This document shows positions 3,343-15,134 of a stretch of DNA of 48,540 nucleotides, piece after piece; position 1 is the stretch's first letter; each line of letters opens with the position of its first letter. The DNA lies in assembly GCA_029552245.1 (NCBI GenBank), contig JAKPDW010000042.1:1-48540 (forward strand), read 5' to 3'. A program made the position numbers and the translations under genes. The notes under the pieces were generated by a model. That model made no database searches. It was not told the origin of the DNA and was given only the letters and a program-made list of their open reading frames with translations. This stretch comes from Deltaproteobacteria bacterium. Its GTDB lineage: Bacteria > Desulfobacterota > Desulfomonilia > UBA1062.

Positions 3343-4005
3343 TCACAGGGTGCACCCCTCGATCGGGGGGTTCACGAGGAAGGCGGCCGGGTCCTTCTCG
3401 AGGCCCTTCACCCTCACCTTCCTCCCCTCCACGACGAGCCTGTTCTCTGCGAAGAGCCGGATGGCCATGGGATAGATGCGGTGCTCCAGCCTGAGGATCC
3501 TCTCGTTCAGCTCCTCCTCGGTGTCGTCAGGGTACACGGGGACAACGGCCTGGATGATGATGGGCCCCGTGTCCACGCCCTCGTCCACGAAATGCACCGT
3601 GCACCCGGAGAACCTGACCCCGTAGTCTATGGCCTTCTGTCTCACGTGAAGACCCGGGAATGAGGGCAACAGGGCGGGGTGTATGTTCATGATCCTGCCT
3701 GGGAAGCGCCTCAGGAAGGCCGGGGTGAGCACACGCATGAAACCTGCAAGGGTCACGAGGTCGACCTGGTACTCTTCCAGCTTGCCTGCGAGCGCCTCGT
3801 CGAAGGATTCCCTGTCGGGATACGCCTCGTGCTGCACCACGACCGTCGGGACGGACATCTTCCGCGCGCGGACGAGTGCGTAGGCGTCCGGCACGTTGCT
3901 GATCACCACGGCGACGGTGCCGTCGATGAGACCGGAGGCGCAGGCATCCATGATGGCCTGGAGGTTCGACCCGCTCCCCGAGACGAGAACGCCTATGCGG
4001 ATCAT
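3343..4005 (-). CDS. purN: Phosphoribosylglycinamide formyltransferase
   Basis: 220 residues, normal length. It transfers a formyl group from 10-formyl-tetrahydrofolate to GAR, the third step of purine synthesis, in the cytosol. Visible signatures: the N-terminal phosphate loop GVLVSGSGSNLQA (5-17), the catalytic NIHPALLPSFPG with Asn107 and His109, and VHFVDEGVDTGPII with Asp145. These match the E. coli triad Asn106/His108/Asp144. The ATG overlaps the purM stop as ATGA (4002-4005), so the two are translationally coupled. The C-terminal ~25 residues extend slightly past the usual end. Confidence 0.97.
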   Translation of the reverse strand: MIRIGVLVSGSGSNLQAIMDACASGLIDGTVAVVISNVPDAYALVRARKMSVPTVVVQHEAYPDRESFDEALAGKLEEYQVDLVTLAGFMRVLTPAFLRRFPGRIMNIHPALLPSFPGLHVRQKAIDYGVRFSGCTVHFVDEGVDTGPIIIQAVVPVYPDDTEEELNERILRLEHRIYPMAIRLFAENRLVVEGRKVRVKGLEKDPAAFLVNPPIEGCTL

Positions 4006-5039
4006 GAGATGATCACCGGGTCCATTCCCTTGGTGCGCGCGTCGATGTAGCCGATGATGTCCGCCGTCTCCTTGAGGCCCTTGAGCCTGAGCATGACATC
4101 GTCGGCGTCCTTCGGTGACACGATCAGGATCATCCCCACACCCATGTTGAACGTGCGGTACATCTCGTGATCTTCGATCTTGCCGACCTCCTGGATGAAC
4201 CTGAAGATCGGGGGGACCTCCCACGAGCCTTTCCTGATGCGGGCGCACGACCTCGACGGGAGAACCCTCGGTATGTTGTCCACGAAGCCGCCGCCCGTGA
4301 TGTGAACGATCCCCTTGATCTCGAAGCTGCGGATCACGTTGAGCACGCTCTTGACATAGATGCGCGTGGGCGTGAGGAGTTCCTCTGCGAGGGTCCTGCC
4401 GATATCCTCGAGATAGTCGTCCACCCTGAGCTTGGCCCGCTCGAAAAGGACCTTGCGCACCAGGGAGAACCCGTTGCTGTGCAGGCCCGAGGAGTGGATC
4501 CCGATGATCACGTCCTTGGCGGCGATCCTGGACCCATCGATGATCTTCTCGGCATCAACAACGCCCACGCCGAAACCGGCGAGGTCGTACTCGTCTTCCC
4601 TGTAGAAACCGGGCATCTCGGCCGTCTCTCCGCCGATGAGCGCACATCCGGCCTCGGCGCAGCCCCTCGTGATACCCGATATGACGGCCTTGGCGCGTTC
4701 CAGGCTCAGCGCCCCGGTCGCGAAGTAGTCGAGGAAGAACAACGGTTGCGCACCCACGACAACCAGGTCGTTGACCACCATGGCCACGAGATCGATGCCC
4801 ACAGTGGAGTGGTTGTCCGCCATGAAGGCGATCTTGAGCTTGGTGCCTACGCCGTCCGTGGAAGATACGAGTATCGGGTCGGTGTATGCCCCGGTGTCGA
4901 GCTTGAAGAGCCCTGCGAACCCGCCTATCCCGCCTATGACCTCAGGACCGTGGGTGGACCTCACGCTCGACTTGATCGCCCTGACGAGCTGGTTCTGTTT
5001 GTCTATGTCTACTCCTGCATCCCGGTACGTCAATGACAT
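4002..5039 (-). CDS. purM: Phosphoribosylformylglycinamidine cyclo-ligase (AIR synthetase)
   Basis: 345 residues, full length. It closes FGAM to AIR with ATP in purine synthesis. Family motifs are all present: the GGFAGLF segment near residue 40, SSTDGVGTKLKIAF near 59-72, GGETAEMPGFY, and GGGFVDNIPRVLP in the C-terminal half. It is the first gene of a two-gene operon with purN and overlaps it by 4 nt. The start has a purine-rich stretch (GGGGGG) just upstream and a candidate promoter about 25-50 nt before it. Confidence 0.98.
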   Translation of the reverse strand: MSLTYRDAGVDIDKQNQLVRAIKSSVRSTHGPEVIGGIGGFAGLFKLDTGAYTDPILVSSTDGVGTKLKIAFMADNHSTVGIDLVAMVVNDLVVVGAQPLFFLDYFATGALSLERAKAVISGITRGCAEAGCALIGGETAEMPGFYREDEYDLAGFGVGVVDAEKIIDGSRIAAKDVIIGIHSSGLHSNGFSLVRKVLFERAKLRVDDYLEDIGRTLAEELLTPTRIYVKSVLNVIRSFEIKGIVHITGGGFVDNIPRVLPSRSCARIRKGSWEVPPIFRFIQEVGKIEDHEMYRTFNMGVGMILIVSPKDADDVMLRLKGLKETADIIGYIDARTKGMDPVIIS

Positions 5040-5811: not shown

Positions 5812-6312
5812 TCAGATCCGTCCGCAGCCGCGGCCGAAGCCCATGCCGCCCATGAAGCCGCGCATGTAGACCGGTCTGAACCTTGCCTCGGGCACCACCT
5901 TCTTGACCTCCAGCTGGTGCCGTATCCGGGCGCGCTCGATCTGGTCCCTGATGGACGCGATCTGCTTGTGGAGGTCGAGGACCTTCGCCTCGTCCGGCTT
6001 GTCGGCGTTGATGGCGGCTTCGAGTTCGAGGACCTTTATCCTCTCCTGCTGCGCGAGCGGCTCCAGCTTCTTGTAGAGCTCGGCTTCCAGCTTATCGACC
6101 CGCTCCCGCTGCTCGGGGGTGAGATCGCCTGCGCCCGGGGCGAAATACATCCCGCCGCGGCAGAAACCGCCTCTGTCTCCACGGTCGTCCCTGTCGTACA
6201 TCATGCCTCTCCCGTCGGGCCCGTAACCCCACCTCGGACCCCAGGCCATGAGGGGCACGGCCAGTGCGGTCAAGATGGAGAGCGTCAAGACGATTATCAT
6301 GGTCCGTTTCAT
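5812..6312 (-). CDS. Periplasmic ZraP/Spy/CpxP-like stress protein
   Basis: 166 residues. A signal peptide (about 1-23, ending LMAWG) precedes a Gly/Arg/Asp-rich linker. A helical region of about 90 residues follows, opening with LTPEQRERVDKL (about 64-75), the LTxxQ-type motif of the Spy/CpxP/ZraP family. The C-terminal tail is Gly-rich with one Cys (GRGCGRI). Family members are periplasmic chaperones or metal-binding regulators; ZraP is zinc-linked. It is divergent from a ZraS/ZraR-like pair and has a consensus sigma-54 promoter. AAGGAGG lies 8 nt before the ATG, fixing the start. The His cluster of enteric ZraP is absent, so the metal role is uncertain. Confidence 0.82.
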   Translation of the reverse strand: MKRTMIIVLTLSILTALAVPLMAWGPRWGYGPDGRGMMYDRDDRGDRGGFCRGGMYFAPGAGDLTPEQRERVDKLEAELYKKLEPLAQQERIKVLELEAAINADKPDEAKVLDLHKQIASIRDQIERARIRHQLEVKKVVPEARFRPVYMRGFMGGMGFGRGCGRI

Positions 6313-6364
6313 TGGTGATCCTCCTTGTTCGAGTGTGTCGGTTCACTCAGCTTGCCCCTCATTG

Positions 6365-6380
6365 AGCAACACCCGTGCCA
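6365..6380 (-). promoter_or_regulatory. Sigma-54 promoter of the zraP-like gene
   Basis: On the minus strand the sequence is TGGCAC-N5-TTGCT, an exact match to the -24/-12 consensus. Transcription would start near 6353, giving about 40 nt of leader before the ATG at 6312. The neighbouring activator carries an intact GAFTGA motif, the sigma-54 contact. Confidence 0.9.
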
Positions 6381-6476
6381 ATGCATCGACGAGTCTCTTT
6401 CTCCTTGTGATATCATCCCCTTACGAATGCCGCCCGCCGTCTACACGCCATGGATGATCCCCGGCATCGATGCTCC

Positions 6477-6526
6477 TGTACATTTTCTATACACATCGCC
6501 CAAGCTTCGTGTATAGAAACTATACA
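6477..6526. promoter_or_regulatory. Two dyad activator sites upstream of the sigma-54 promoter
   Basis: Two 17-bp sites share the form TGTA(T/C)A(G/T)-N3-CTATACA, at 6477-6493 and 6510-6526. Their starts are 33 bp apart, about three helical turns. Viewed together, TTTCTATACAC (6484-6494) and GTGTATAGAAA (6509-6519) form a perfect 11-bp inverted repeat. They lie about 100-145 bp upstream of the -24 element, the usual place for enhancer sites of NtrC-class activators. The ZraR-like protein is the natural candidate binder, by inference. Confidence 0.72.
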
Positions 6527-6842
6527 TGGTGCATACCTCGAGCAGGGTACCTCGCGGAAGCAGTGTGGCCGGGGGGACGAACGGCCCTCGGTTTCGGGCA
6601 TGGACGACGAGGAGTCTGCCTGGAGGTGAACCTCGATGCCCGAGGAGGCCGCCATGCACCGTCAACGCCTCACAACGCACTGGTTTCACACATGGTTTTC
6701 GGTTCGCGACATCGTCTCTCCCCGGGTGCCCGGTCGCCTGTGAGCCCCTGTCTCGACCCGTTCTCGCCTCCTCTCCGACGAACGGCACGAGGGGCCTGGT
6801 CATGGACGCCGAGCATCCGGCGCTTCGCCTTGGGGACATGGC
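6527..6842. other. Leader region upstream of the sensor kinase gene
   Basis: About 315 bases with no supported gene. Several overlapping frames exist but have no start signal or family match. A promoter for the kinase-activator pair is expected here but could not be picked by eye. Confidence 0.5.
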
Positions 6843-8630
6843 ATGGATGTTGAAAACCAGAGTTTTCTGAAACACATGGGCACCGATAAGAAAGGCAACT
6901 CTCGCAAGGTGTGGATCCGCATATCCCCGTGGGTGATCATGGGGTCTCTTGTGGTGATGGCGCCGATCTTCATTTTCATCACCATGGAGAGCATCAGGAT
7001 CCAGCGCAGGAGTATCGAGCTGATGCTCAGCGAGAAGGGGGGTGCCCTGATCCGCGCCTTCGAGGCAGGGACGAGGACAGGGATGATGTGGGGGGACTGG
7101 AGCGGGTCGAGGGTGCAACAGCTCATCAGGGAAACCGCGGATCTCCCCGACATCCTCTACATCCTCATCACCGACGAGAAGGGCACGATCATCGCCCACA
7201 ACCAGCCCCTCAACATCGGTCTGAAGTACGGACCTGACCTCCCCAAGGTCATCGACAGGACCCTCAGGTGGCGGATCGTCATGACACCGAACGGCACCCG
7301 GGTGTTCGAGGTATACCGGCGTTTTCACCCGTCGCGTCCGGGCATGTTCCCGAGGCCTGGGCATCCCATGCACTACCGGTATCAAGACTGGTTCTCCCCC
7401 CACATGCTCCCGGCACCGTCGGCCCCACCGGTCCAGGTCATCTACGTGGGCCTTGACATGGAACCCATCGAGAGGGTGGTCAACGAGAGCATCAAGCAGA
7501 AGGTGATCCTCGCGGTGTTCCTCCTCATGTACGGGCTGTTGGGCATCGTTGCCGTGGTCATCGTCCAGAACTACCTCTCCACCCGCGCCTCACTCTCGAG
7601 GGTGAGGGCCTTCTCCGACACGCTGGTCGAGAACATGCCCATGGGGCTCGTCGTGATCGGCGAGACAGGGACCCTGTTATCCCTGAACGACGTCTCGGAG
7701 AGGCTGCTCGGAATCTCCGGCAGAGACTGGGCAGACTCGAAGGCGAAGGACATCCTCCCTCGAGAGATCGTCGACATGATCGTGGAGGTGGACGACGAAC
7801 ACCCGCTCGCCACCAAGGAGCTCGAGCTCGACGCAGGGGGGAGGAACCTCTCGCTTGAAGCGACCGCGGGCAGCCTCAGGGACGAGGAAGGCCGCCTCCT
7901 CGGGCACCTCGTGCTCCTGCGCGACGTCACCGAGATAGAACATCTCAAGCGCGAGATGGAACGCAAGGAACGCCTTGCCTCCCTGGGGAGCCTCGCCGCC
8001 GGGGTGGCCCACGAGATCAGGAACCCCCTGAGCTCGATCAAGGGGTTCGCCACCTACTTCAGGGAGCGCTACCACATGGTGCCCGAGGATGCGAGGATCG
8101 CCGACATCATGATCGGCGAGGTTGAGAGGCTGAACAGGGTGATCGGCCAGCTCCTGGACCTCGCCAAGCCCCTGGACATGAAGAAGGAGCGCTGTTCCCT
8201 GCTCTCCATCGTGAGACGGACGCTCGAGACGGTGGAGGACCAGGCTGCGAGGAGATCCATCACCATCGACCGGTCCGGGCTGGGAGAGAACCCCTGTCAC
8301 GTCGTGGCCGACCCGGACAAGATAGCCCAGGTCATGCTCAATCTCTACCTCAACGCCATGGAGGCGATGGATTCCGGGGGTGTGCTCAGCGTCGCCCTCG
8401 AATGCAACGGCATCGACTCGCCCGTGACGATCGAGGTGAGCGACACCGGCTGCGGCATCCATCCGGAACATCTCGAACATATCTTCGACCCGTACTTCAC
8501 CACCAAGCAGTCAGGCACCGGGTTGGGCCTCGCCGTGGTCCACAAGATCGTCGAGGCCCACGGCGGGGACATCAAGGTGACCAGCCGCATGGGCCAGGGG
8601 ACGACGGTACGGGTCACGCTCGGACCTTGA
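6843..8630 (+). CDS. ZraS-like membrane sensor histidine kinase
   Basis: 595 residues. One membrane segment at about 29-47, a periplasmic domain of about 170 residues, and a second segment at about 220-242. Then a PAS domain (about 255-365), a HisKA domain with phospho-acceptor His390 in AAGVAHEIRNPLSSIKG, and a HATPase domain with NLYLNAMEAM, DTGCGIHPEHL and SGTGLGLAVVHKI. The periplasmic part ends in a His/Met-rich stretch (about 162-188: four His and three Met), plausible for metal sensing. It would phosphorylate the response regulator encoded 11 nt downstream. The start has only a weak upstream purine run; an ATG at 6876 is an alternative. Confidence 0.9.
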   Translation: MDVENQSFLKHMGTDKKGNSRKVWIRISPWVIMGSLVVMAPIFIFITMESIRIQRRSIELMLSEKGGALIRAFEAGTRTGMMWGDWSGSRVQQLIRETADLPDILYILITDEKGTIIAHNQPLNIGLKYGPDLPKVIDRTLRWRIVMTPNGTRVFEVYRRFHPSRPGMFPRPGHPMHYRYQDWFSPHMLPAPSAPPVQVIYVGLDMEPIERVVNESIKQKVILAVFLLMYGLLGIVAVVIVQNYLSTRASLSRVRAFSDTLVENMPMGLVVIGETGTLLSLNDVSERLLGISGRDWADSKAKDILPREIVDMIVEVDDEHPLATKELELDAGGRNLSLEATAGSLRDEEGRLLGHLVLLRDVTEIEHLKREMERKERLASLGSLAAGVAHEIRNPLSSIKGFATYFRERYHMVPEDARIADIMIGEVERLNRVIGQLLDLAKPLDMKKERCSLLSIVRRTLETVEDQAARRSITIDRSGLGENPCHVVADPDKIAQVMLNLYLNAMEAMDSGGVLSVALECNGIDSPVTIEVSDTGCGIHPEHLEHIFDPYFTTKQSGTGLGLAVVHKIVEAHGGDIKVTSRMGQGTTVRVTLGP

Positions 8631-8641
8631 GAGGTGGACAC

Positions 8642-10033
8642 ATGGGAAACCAGCCTGACAGGGCAGTGCTCGTGGTCGACGACGATCTCGGGCACCGCAC
8701 CATGCTCAAGACCCTCCTTGGGGGATGGGATTTCAAGGTGAGCGAGGCGTCTGACGGCCAGGAGGCCATAGACGCGGTCAGGGACGCCCCCTTCGACCTC
8801 GTCCTCATGGACATCCGCATGGTCAAGGTCTCGGGACTCGAGGCCCTCGCTTCCATCAAGGAGATCAACCCGGCGATCCCGGTCATCATCATGACCGCCT
8901 ACTCGTCCGTGGAGACCGCTATCGAAGCGATGAAGAAAGGGGCCTACGACTACCTCACGAAACCCCTCGACTTCGACGCCCTGCGGCTCAAGATGGAACA
9001 GGCCATGGAGCACAGCTCGCTCAAGGAGGAGAACCGCATCCTCAAGAGCCTGGTGGGCGAGCGCTTCGACTCGTCGAACATCATCGGCAGGAGCCCTGCC
9101 ATGGTGAGGCTTCTCGAGACCGCGCAGCGCGCCTCGGCATCGGACGCAACCGTGCTCGTCTCGGGAGAGTCGGGGACCGGCAAGGAGATGGTGGCCGGCG
9201 CGATCCACTACAACTCCTCGAGGAAAGACGGCCCGTTCATCAAGATCAACTGCGCGGCGATCTCCGAGGGCCTGCTCGAGTCGGAGCTGTTCGGCCACGA
9301 GAAGGGGGCCTTCACCGGCGCCCTCAGGCGCAGGGAGGGGAGCTTCAAGCAGGCGCACCGGGGAACCCTGTTCCTGGACGAGGTGAGCGAGATGTCTCTC
9401 GCCATGCAGGCGAAGCTCCTCAGGGTCATCCAGGAACGCGAGTTCACGCGTGTGGGCGGCGAGGAAGTCATCCGCGTGGATGTCCGTATCATAGCGGCCA
9501 CGAACAGGGACCTTGCACAGATGGTGAGGGAGCGGACGTTCAGGGAAGACCTCTTCTACCGCCTCAACGTCATACACTTGAGCGTGCCGCCCCTTCGTGA
9601 GCGAAGGGAGGACATCCCCCTTCTCGCACAGCACTTCCTCGGGCTCTTCACCAAGAAGAACGCGAAGGACATCAAGGGGTTCACACCCCAGGCCATGGAC
9701 CGTCTCATCAGGCACACGTGGCCAGGCAACGTCAGGGAGCTCATGAACACCATCGAGAGCGCCGTGGTGCTCTCCTCGACCCCCAACCTCAGGGAAGAGG
9801 ACATCACGCTCGTCTACCCGGGTGGGGAAGACGCCGTTCCCCAAGCCATCCCCGCCGAACTCACCCTCGACGAGGTGGAGCGTTCGACCATCCTCGCCGT
9901 CCTCTCTTCCGTCGGCGGCAACAAGAGCGAAGCGGCCAGAAAGCTGGGGATAACCAGGGCGACGCTCCACAAGAAGCTGAAGAGCTACGGGGTGGAAGGA
10001 GAGAACCTTCATGGCCCCTCACGTCGTGCATGA
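8642..10033 (+). CDS. ZraR/NtrC-like sigma-54 activator response regulator
   Basis: 463 residues with three domains. A receiver domain (about 6-120) has Asp13/Asp14, phospho-acceptor Asp57 (LVLMDIRM) and Lys107. A sigma-54 AAA+ domain (about 145-385) has Walker A GESGTGKE (175-182), an intact GAFTGA loop (222-227) and Walker B LFLDE (243-247). A Fis-type helix-turn-helix closes the protein (about 415-455, GNKSEAARKLGITRATLHKKL). The ATG with GAGAGGTGG upstream sets the start, 11 nt after the kinase stop. It presumably activates the consensus sigma-54 promoter of the divergent zraP-like gene through the dyads at 6477-6526. Confidence 0.95.
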   Translation: MGNQPDRAVLVVDDDLGHRTMLKTLLGGWDFKVSEASDGQEAIDAVRDAPFDLVLMDIRMVKVSGLEALASIKEINPAIPVIIMTAYSSVETAIEAMKKGAYDYLTKPLDFDALRLKMEQAMEHSSLKEENRILKSLVGERFDSSNIIGRSPAMVRLLETAQRASASDATVLVSGESGTGKEMVAGAIHYNSSRKDGPFIKINCAAISEGLLESELFGHEKGAFTGALRRREGSFKQAHRGTLFLDEVSEMSLAMQAKLLRVIQEREFTRVGGEEVIRVDVRIIAATNRDLAQMVRERTFREDLFYRLNVIHLSVPPLRERREDIPLLAQHFLGLFTKKNAKDIKGFTPQAMDRLIRHTWPGNVRELMNTIESAVVLSSTPNLREEDITLVYPGGEDAVPQAIPAELTLDEVERSTILAVLSSVGGNKSEAARKLGITRATLHKKLKSYGVEGENLHGPSRRA

Positions 10034-12137: not shown

Positions 12138-15134
12138 TCAGGCCTGTCCCTTTGGCTTGGCGTCGAGCTCTTCGCGTATCGCCCTGGCGAGTGCCTCCAG
12201 GGTGTAGGGCTTGTGCACGTACCTGCCCACGCCGAGCTCACGCGCCGCCTTGACACGCTCGTTCTCGGAGAAACCGCTCACGATGACCGCCTTCATGGGG
12301 CCTGTTGCCTCGACGATCTTCCTGTACGTGTCGAGACCGTCCATCCCCGGGCCCAGGATCATGTCGAGGACGACGAGGTCGCATCGGCGCCTGGAGACGA
12401 ACTCGACGGCATCCTCCCCAGTGGAGACCGTGTGCACGGTATACCCGAGCCTCATAAGGATGTTCTTGACCAGCTCTCTCTGATCCTCCACGTCGTCGAC
12501 GACGAGGATGCTCTCTGTTCCCGCGAAATCCGTTATCGGCGCAGAGTCCTGGCTGTGCACGGCCTTCTCGGTCGTGACCGGGAAATAGAGATCGATCCTC
12601 GTCCCCTCCCCTGGCGCACTCACGATGTCGATGTGTCCCTTGTGATCCTTGACCGTGGTCCAGACGACGGTCATGCCGAGGCCGGTACCGCTTCGTCCCA
12701 TGACCTTCTTGGTGAAGAAGGGCTCGAAGATCTTCTTCTGGTCTTCCTCGGTGATTCCCATCCCCGTGTCCTCCACGGTAAGGACCGTGTAGACGCCGGG
12801 GCCGACCGTGTCGAACCCCTTGAGCGGCTGGTCGAGACGCCTGGTTGAAGTGCGTATGGTGACCTCGCCTCCGGAGGGTATCGCCTCGGCAGCGTTCGAT
12901 ACGAGGTTCATGAGGGTCTTCCCGAGGTGGAGCTCCGAGCCCGCGATGAGTCCCACCGTCTCCTGCAGGTCCACCTTGAAAGACACACCGGGATGGTACT
13001 CTTTCAGTTTCTGGAACTCCGGGCTCTCGAGGTAGTCGCTCACCACGCGGTTGATGTCAACCACGCCGGATTTCCCCACCCCCCTCCTCGCGAGGGTGAG
13101 CAGGTCTTGGACCATAGCCGCCGCCTTCTCGCCGGACTTCTTGATCGTGAGGGCCACCTTCCTGAGGGGAGACCCCTCGGGGAGCTCCATCAGCAGCAGT
13201 TCGGGATACCCGGTGATACCGCTCAAGATATTGTTGAGATCGTGTGCGACGCCGCCTGCGAGGTTGCCTATGGCCTCCATCTTCTGCGACCTCACCAGCT
13301 GGACCTCGAGCTGTCTCTTCTCCTGTTCGGCCGCCTTCCTGGCGGTGACGTCGTTTCCCACGCACAGGATCTCGTTTATTGCGCCGCCTTTTCCCCGCAC
13401 CGGCCTCATGCTCCAGCTGACCCACACCCGCTCGCCGTTGCGCCTGATGTTCTCGTTCTCCACCCCGGCGGCAAGGACGGGCTCGGCGAGGAACCTGCCC
13501 ACGATCTCGGCCATGTCCCTTCCCGATGAGTCCCTGCGGGGGATCATGAACCCGACCACGTCCTGGCCTATCATCTCGTCCTCTTCGTACCCGTAGAACT
13601 CGCATGCGAACCTGTTCGCGAACGTTATCTTCCCCTCGGTGCTGATCCTGAGAATGATGCTCGCCGCGCTCTCCACGAGATCACGGTACTTTTCTTCGCT
13701 CTCCTGCAGCCTCTCGAACGTGCGGGCGTTGTTGATGCAGATGGCGATCTGCGGGGCTATGCCGAGCAACAGCTTCACGTCGTTCTGCCTGAGGGGCGTC
13801 TGCCTGAACGTCCGGTCGACGACCAAGATGCCCAGGGGTTCCTGCTCGAAGACGATCGGCACGCAGATGAAGGACGACGACTCGGAGAGCATGAGCAGCT
13901 CCTGGCTCCTCTCGGAGAGGTCTTTCGTTATCTCGTGCGCGTCTTCTATCAAGAGGGGCCTTCTCTCCCTGAAACAGACGACCAGGGGGCCCTTGGAAGC
14001 GGGGTTGTCCAGGTGGAGACTCGTGGCCTTCAAGAACTCCTCCTGTTCGGCGGTGAGCCCGTATCCTGCACGGTACTCGAGGAGGCTCTTGTCCTCGTTG
14101 GCGAGCATGACGGCGCCCCTGTCGAAATCCAGCCTGTTCTTCATGATGTTCACGACCGACTCGAGAAGCATGTCTATGTCGAGCGTGCCCGATATGGCCT
14201 CTCCTATCTCCTGGATGAGCAGAGAGTCGTTGTACCTGGCGTTGGACTCGGCTATGAGCATCTCCGCGGTGAGCGACTGTTCCCTGAGGCGTTTCCTGTA
14301 CTCCGTGTTCTCGAGCCTGAGTCTCAGTATGCTCAAGGCCAGGACGAGCGCGACGAACAGCTCGAACGGCTTCATGAGCCCGTAGCCCTCGGGCAGGACC
14401 GACCATGCGACGGCAAACGCCACGATCCCGCCAAACAGCAGGTAGTTGATGTATCTCTTGAGTCTCAAGAACAGCGGTTCGCGCCACGTCACGATGTACC
14501 TGCAGCTCTCGTCACCCCTGTGGATGCATTCGGGGTGCTCGATGTGGGCGTATTCACCGGTGAACAACTTTGCCATGGCCTCGAACTGACCGATCCGGTT
14601 CTCGCACTGGTAGGGCTTCTCGTGCACTCCCCGGTGCGGCCTCGTGACCACGAGCATCTTCGACCTGCCCAGGGTCTCGACATCGAGCTGTGAGCTCCTG
14701 GTCACCTTCGCATGGATCCTCGGCAGGAGCTTGTAGGCGATCTCAGGGGTGATGAAGCCCTGGATGTACTCCCGGATCACCTTGTAGGCCTTCGAGGACA
14801 CGACGAACCTCCCCGCCTCCCTCGAGATGCGGGGGTTTCGTGTCCTCTTGCGCACGAGGTCGTGGAAACGGTCTGCAGTGTCCTGGTCGTACCAGAACCC
14901 GGGGTCCTCGAGGTGGCTCCGCTCCATGCCGACATGCCCGAGCACCTCGTCCACCGAGACGTACGGGTAATACTTCTCCAGGTATTCAACGTAGGTCTTT
15001 ATGATCCTTACGTTGTACAGGAGATCCCCTCTCTGGTCCCTCGTGTCGCCCATCTCGTGACTGCTCCACCCATAGGCGGGCTGCAATGCCTTTCGCGTCG
15101 GGGTCTTCCGCGTGTCATCCCCCGCCCGAGGCAT
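12138..15134 (-). CDS. Hybrid sensor histidine kinase with N-terminal Desulfobacterota-type ligand module, GAF, PAS and receiver
   Basis: 998 residues. The N-terminal ~215 residues (LYNVRIIKTYVEYL to HPECIHRGDESCRYIVTW) form a module seen on many Desulfobacterota kinases; its tail resembles V4R-type small-molecule domains. Two membrane segments follow (about 230-247, 257-272), then GAF (about 305-470), PAS (about 483-600), HisKA with His631 (GGVAHDLNNILSGI), HATPase (N743/N747, DTGMGI, SGTGLGM) and a C-terminal receiver with Asp924 and Lys975. The receiver may be an internal relay or a phosphate sink. No partner regulator is adjacent. An ATG at 15053 (MGDTRDQRG) is an equally plausible start. 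Confidence 0.9.
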   Translation of the reverse strand: MPRAGDDTRKTPTRKALQPAYGWSSHEMGDTRDQRGDLLYNVRIIKTYVEYLEKYYPYVSVDEVLGHVGMERSHLEDPGFWYDQDTADRFHDLVRKRTRNPRISREAGRFVVSSKAYKVIREYIQGFITPEIAYKLLPRIHAKVTRSSQLDVETLGRSKMLVVTRPHRGVHEKPYQCENRIGQFEAMAKLFTGEYAHIEHPECIHRGDESCRYIVTWREPLFLRLKRYINYLLFGGIVAFAVAWSVLPEGYGLMKPFELFVALVLALSILRLRLENTEYRKRLREQSLTAEMLIAESNARYNDSLLIQEIGEAISGTLDIDMLLESVVNIMKNRLDFDRGAVMLANEDKSLLEYRAGYGLTAEQEEFLKATSLHLDNPASKGPLVVCFRERRPLLIEDAHEITKDLSERSQELLMLSESSSFICVPIVFEQEPLGILVVDRTFRQTPLRQNDVKLLLGIAPQIAICINNARTFERLQESEEKYRDLVESAASIILRISTEGKITFANRFACEFYGYEEDEMIGQDVVGFMIPRRDSSGRDMAEIVGRFLAEPVLAAGVENENIRRNGERVWVSWSMRPVRGKGGAINEILCVGNDVTARKAAEQEKRQLEVQLVRSQKMEAIGNLAGGVAHDLNNILSGITGYPELLLMELPEGSPLRKVALTIKKSGEKAAAMVQDLLTLARRGVGKSGVVDINRVVSDYLESPEFQKLKEYHPGVSFKVDLQETVGLIAGSELHLGKTLMNLVSNAAEAIPSGGEVTIRTSTRRLDQPLKGFDTVGPGVYTVLTVEDTGMGITEEDQKKIFEPFFTKKVMGRSGTGLGMTVVWTTVKDHKGHIDIVSAPGEGTRIDLYFPVTTEKAVHSQDSAPITDFAGTESILVVDDVEDQRELVKNILMRLGYTVHTVSTGEDAVEFVSRRRCDLVVLDMILGPGMDGLDTYRKIVEATGPMKAVIVSGFSENERVKAARELGVGRYVHKPYTLEALARAIREELDAKPKGQA

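Follow-up and report, generated by a model that had tools for sequence, protein, structure and literature searches.

The closest described counterpart of the locus analyzed here is the ZraPSR (HydHG) system of Escherichia coli and Salmonella, in which zraP and zraSR are divergent, with inverted-repeat sites between them and sigma54-type elements on both sides. E. coli ZraR binds with high affinity only the zraP/zraSR spacer in genomic SELEX (gSELEX) (PMC8249747), and its direct targets by chromatin immunoprecipitation with exonuclease digestion (ChIP-exo) are zraP, zraSR, and mgtA (PMC7657598); in this divergent arrangement, E. coli ZraR regulates its own synthesis and has close to a single target (PMC8249747, PMC7657598). 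Another described case is DVU3381-DVU3382/DVU3384 of Desulfovibrio vulgaris Hildenborough, where a GAFTGA-containing sigma54 regulator targets its own operon and a neighboring gene and is listed under envelope stress response (PMC4641369); its binding motif was tested by gel shift (PMC3333781). Here, we describe a locus with the enteric layout, likewise with a GAFTGA regulator, in a 48,540-nt stretch of contig JAKPDW010000042.1 (the window). Its region 6365 to 6854 is very probably a shared control region, in which one enhancer array serves two divergent sigma54 promoters of a ZraPSR-like system. The features of the locus are as follows.

5812 to 6312, minus strand: zraP-like gene (Metal_resist PF13801, Pfam 3.3e-15)
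6365 to 6380, minus strand: P_zraP, sigma54 -24/-12 element TGGCACGGGTGTTGCT; exact consensus, family-conserved, predicted start at about 6353
6477 to 6493, no strand assigned: dyad 1, TGTACATTTTCTATACA; putative enhancer site, imperfect, conserved in relatives
6502 to 6507, no strand assigned: position of the middle half-site, which reads TATACA in close relatives; the window has a degenerate AAGCTT there
6510 to 6526, no strand assigned: dyad 2, TGTATAGAAACTATACA; putative enhancer site, perfect palindrome, conserved in relatives
6535 to 6838, no strand assigned: enhancer-to-P_zraS interval; exceeds its length in relatives by about 258 bp and is single copy
6839 to 6854, plus strand: P_zraS, sigma54-type -24/-12 element TGGCATGGATGTTGAA; weak -12 (TTGAA), position conserved in relatives
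6876 (proposed start; listed start 6843) to 8630, plus strand: zraS-like sensor kinase (sCache_3_2, PAS_4, HisKA, HATPase_c)
8642 to 10033, plus strand: zraR-like sigma54 activator (REC, AAA+ with GAFTGA, Fis-type helix-turn-helix [HTH], PF02954)

A preliminary description of this DNA had proposed a consensus -24/-12 element on the minus strand, which we recovered at 6380 to 6365. The sequence TGGCACGGGTGTTGCT is the sole match to TGGCAC-N5-TTGCW in the window, even with one mismatch allowed, it carries the GG at -24 and the GC at -12 expected of a sigma54 promoter, and an exact promoter arose in 2 of 3000 dinucleotide shuffles of the intergenic region. The start predicted near 6353 follows from the consensus spacing. 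Both dyads, which the same description had placed 33 bp apart, are exact matches to the dyad pattern, and they are the only exact ones in the window, where up to three mismatches yield 11 matches against 1.1 expected; a similar pair appeared in 8 of the 3000 shuffles. Dyad 2 is a perfect palindrome with arms of 7 bp around a 3-bp center, and dyad 1 is mismatched at 2 of its 7 pairs. A chance origin of promoter and dyads is rejected by these shuffles and pattern counts.

Conservation of the dyads in relatives had been set beforehand as the point on which the description should stand or fall. The window's family is of the same class as Desulfomonile tiedjei: a second contig of G028, a genome assigned to the window's class, is 100% identical, over the 12 kb compared, to the plasmid of D. 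tiedjei DSM 6799. Of this family, 24 genomes were compared, 18 of which code for the regulator (E values up to 1e-130). We found the dyad pair in 17 of these 18, in the same place and once per genome, with a spacing of 32 bp in 16 genomes and 33 bp in the window, while the contig of G018 stops short of the site. The six family genomes that lack the regulator do not have the pair, and the reversed-pattern control found no pair either. The dyads might instead serve as operator for some other protein, such as a different activator or a repressor of the sigma70 type, and lie in the zraP-zraS interval by accident; single TGTATA-N5-TATACA sites do occur elsewhere in a few relatives. However, exact single sites elsewhere in the family genomes are few and about as rare as in the reversed-pattern control, and the pair itself follows the zraR-like regulator from genome to genome. 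Its position relative to the two sigma54 elements is also fixed in the family, and its bases at ±6 change along with the recognition helix of the zraR-like protein, as described below. We regard this alternative as highly improbable. A genome-wide regulon was also considered and rejected, since beyond the pair at this locus no exact one occurs in the genome or in its family; in the whole genome (3.27 Mb) no further exact dyad match was found, and matches with two mismatches were no commoner than those of the reversed-pattern control.

In close relatives, the dyads mostly belong to a longer array, TGTATA-N5-TATACA-N7-TATACA-N2-TGTATA-N5-TATACA, with a fifth half-site two bases before dyad 2. 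At this middle position, at least three of the four fixed bases are present in 28 of 52 loci, compared to 16 of 540 control positions. Among the compared loci, the spacing between dyads clusters at 32 to 33 or 41 to 44 bp, which corresponds to three or four helical turns, so the dyads of the window, three turns apart, would lie on one face of the DNA. Several subsites on one face upstream of a promoter have also been described for the sigma54 activator CbrB of Pseudomonas putida, although those subsites (TGTTAC) are non-palindromic and variably spaced, unlike the dyads of the window (PMC6296734). The dyads of the window lie 97 to 146 bp from the -24 element of P_zraP, and the distance from that element to dyad 1 is about 98 to 99 bp in most family members and 86 to 88 bp in some. 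In loci L192 to L251 this distance clusters near 53, 76, 87, and 98 bp, which is suggestive of steps of roughly one helical turn. We make no claim of helical phasing outside the family, because the Rayleigh test at 10.5 bp gave a P value of 0.0025 that rose to 0.12 once equal values were collapsed. Throughout one subclade (L120, L123, L125, L126, L128, L129, L131, and L140), the -12 of P_zraP is TTGAA instead of TTGCT.

The preliminary description had called the locus a complete sigma54 circuit. Its promoter and dyads stood, and its single promoter did not, as a second, divergent element lies at 6839 to 6854. In relatives, the corresponding TGGCAY-N5-TTG(A/T)A lies 68 to 72 bp from the start of dyad 2; the element of the window is 329 bp away. 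It could be that P_zraP is the sole genuine sigma54 promoter and that this sequence is the coding start of zraS, with zraSR transcribed from a housekeeping promoter. The ATG inside the element opens the zraS frame in the window and in four relatives of the same genus, and the C of the -12 is missing from the element in the window (TGGCAT-N5-TTGAA, with the -24 in order) and in relatives, which makes P_zraS the weaker claim. On the other hand, four relatives (L121, L124, L129, and L130) keep the element as TGGCAC without any ATG, and in four others (L123, L125, L126, and L127) a stop follows soon after the ATG while the distance of the element is unchanged, so the element is conserved as DNA and not as coding sequence. 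The E. coli interval also has sigma54-like elements on both strands, one of them in the same place before zraS. The housekeeping-promoter explanation thus looks unlikely, and we favor P_zraS as the second promoter of the shared region. The listed zraS start at 6843 lies inside this conserved element and is for that reason probably wrong; the next in-frame ATG, at 6876, is the likelier start.

Compared to its relatives, the window is slightly degenerate: its dyads are spaced at 33 instead of 32 bp, its middle half-site is lost, and zraS is preceded by about 258 bp of additional sequence. We considered whether this extra DNA is a repeated element or a structured RNA and rejected both, as it is single copy in the genome and its fold is no stronger than that of shuffled sequences.

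From E. coli and the established knowledge of NtrC-family activators, we infer how such a switch would work. The zraS-like kinase would phosphorylate the response regulator, whose dimers would bind the two TGTATA-N5-TATACA-type dyads on one face of the DNA and nucleate an AAA+ oligomer, which would loop to sigma54-RNA polymerase both at P_zraP, which has the strong consensus and lies 97 bp from dyad 1, and at P_zraS, whose -12 is weaker. The outcome would be the induction of a periplasmic chaperone and the amplification of the kinase-regulator operon, so that the zraP-like gene and the regulator genes are probably turned on together, and the inducing signal would by analogy be envelope or metal stress. 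Some features weigh against a shared control region of this kind: the missing -12 C of P_zraS, the AAGCTT in place of the middle half-site together with the imperfect dyad 1, and our failure to find a conserved IHF-like site that could aid looping, with only scattered near-matches seen.

The protein encoded at 8642 to 10033 has the domains of an NtrC-family response regulator (bacterial enhancer-binding protein), in agreement with the activator with GAFTGA and a Fis-type HTH announced by the preliminary description, and the same genome contains a sigma54 gene (rpoN; PF04552, 1.3e-62). The zraP-like protein has an LTPEQ motif and a hydrophobic N terminus resembling a signal peptide. Identity to the E. 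coli proteins is 54% for ZraR (residues 9 to 446), 49% for the kinase core of ZraS, and 24% for ZraP, and the kinase of the window has a PAS domain that E. coli ZraS lacks. None of the three reaches its NCBIfam equivalog cutoff (31.8 of 200 bits for ZraP, 386 of 479 for ZraS, and 531 of 760 for ZraR), so the name "ZraPSR-like" is based on gene order and layout and not on orthology tests. Against AtoC, the score of the regulator (554 of 714 bits, still under the cutoff) is slightly higher than against ZraR. An AtoSC identity was rejected, given that score and the examined neighbors, which are zraP-like, purM/purN-like, and HAD hydrolase genes, with no ato operon setting. As the ZraPSR reference we used the annotated E. 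coli genome; L012, the best enteric match, was discarded because it turned out to be AtoSC.

The half-site word is the part of the system that differs most clearly. As the preliminary description had suspected, the sites are distinct from those of enteric ZraR: the E. coli interval contains GAGTAAAAATGACTC / GAGTCATTTTTACTC (GAGT-N7-ACTC, compared to TGTATA-N5-TATACA in the window), although the difference is mainly at two positions per half-site and the Fis-like frame is shared. Among orthologues of the regulator at 50 to 70% identity, the layout is unchanged and the words differ, with TGGATA or TGGGTA in many families, TGAGTAAAAA in Desulfovibrio-like paralogues, and GAGTAAAAATGACTC in E. 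coli. All of these words have a G at ±7, variable bases at ±6 and ±5, a pyrimidine-purine (Y-R) step at ±4/±3, and an A/T center. The recognition helix of the window's regulator is ITRATLHKKL, with Arg439 and Ala440. Aligning it with the Fis sequence INRGTLRKKL, we take Arg439 to be the counterpart of Fis Arg85. In Fis, the recognition helix starts with Arg85, which contacts G±7, and the sites have a Y-R step at ±3-4 and an A/T-rich center (PMC4784862). The window shares this frame as well as a related HTH, but its sites also specify ±6 and ±5. By this comparison, the Arg of the ITR motif would read G±7 in the window. The next residue, Ala440, may set the base at ±6.

We compared the residue that follows ITR with the base at ±6 across 56 loci, with site pairs chosen blind to the bases at ±6 and ±5. 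With Ala, Met, or Val at this place, 91 of 100 half-sites carry T at ±6 and 1 carries G; with Lys or Arg, 82 of 124 carry G. The middle half-site, which played no part in site choice, gives T in 14 of 14 cases for Ala/Met/Val and G in 9 of 14 for Lys/Arg. We therefore propose, tentatively and at slightly less than an even chance, that this residue sets the ±6 base (Ala/Met/Val for T, Lys/Arg for G) and that the five-half-site array has been rewritten together with the protein in separate lineages while its architecture stayed fixed. Several observations speak against the proposal. The rule has exceptions (L138, with Arg and TGTATA; L141 and L219, with Lys and mixed sites), and A is the ±6 base with Lys-Leu regulators such as that of E. 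coli. On a tree computed with the HTH left out, the class of the residue has to change three times, two of these changes being forced by supported branches, and there are only two or three independent pairs, a number too small for a test on the phylogeny to reach significance. The few independent changes and the exceptions also favor a different reading, in which regulator and site drifted together by lineage and the code is set elsewhere in the HTH (for example, at the His/Leu/Arg three residues further along); the GAGTA code of the E. coli type, which accompanies Lys plus Leu, is likewise in its favor. However, T stands at ±6 in two separate Ala clades (the window's family and the f41 copies), and G in most of their Lys/Arg neighbors. 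Lineage drift is a substantial possibility that we place moderately below even odds. Because independent changes are few and exceptions exist, we put forward the causal link between residue and base as a hypothesis, and we describe the system as belonging to the ZraPSR kind; its site word is specific to the clade, and it may have a specificity residue.

Activators of sigma54 are common in these genomes, and their sites are rarely predictable from the protein sequence. One orthologous system with the same enhancer layout, at least three half-site words, and a candidate residue makes protein-DNA coevolution directly testable in this family, and it offers a pattern by which ZraSR-like control regions can be sought among uncultured relatives.

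In several Desulfovibrio-like genomes (L139, L143, L146, L147, L223 to L229, L240, and L243), ZraSR occurs as two or three paralogues with dissimilar half-sites and recognition helices, as would fit mutual insulation; these genomes differ in this from the window. Other departures concern the divergent gene. In L128, L131, and L140, the paired dyads and zraSR are kept and no zraP-like gene was found between the promoter remnant and purM. In L130 (G005), a large membrane permease-like protein replaces zraP, and a similar one is found in L120 on the minus strand beyond zraP. Purine synthesis genes lie near zra both in the window (3343 to 5039, purM- and purN-like) and in E. coli (purH and purD; L156, 6143 to 8001), which is possibly a coincidence. 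Last, positions 12138 to 15134 of the window, on the minus strand, code for a 998-amino-acid hybrid kinase with GAF, PAS, HisKA, HATPase, and receiver domains and a weak match to V4R.
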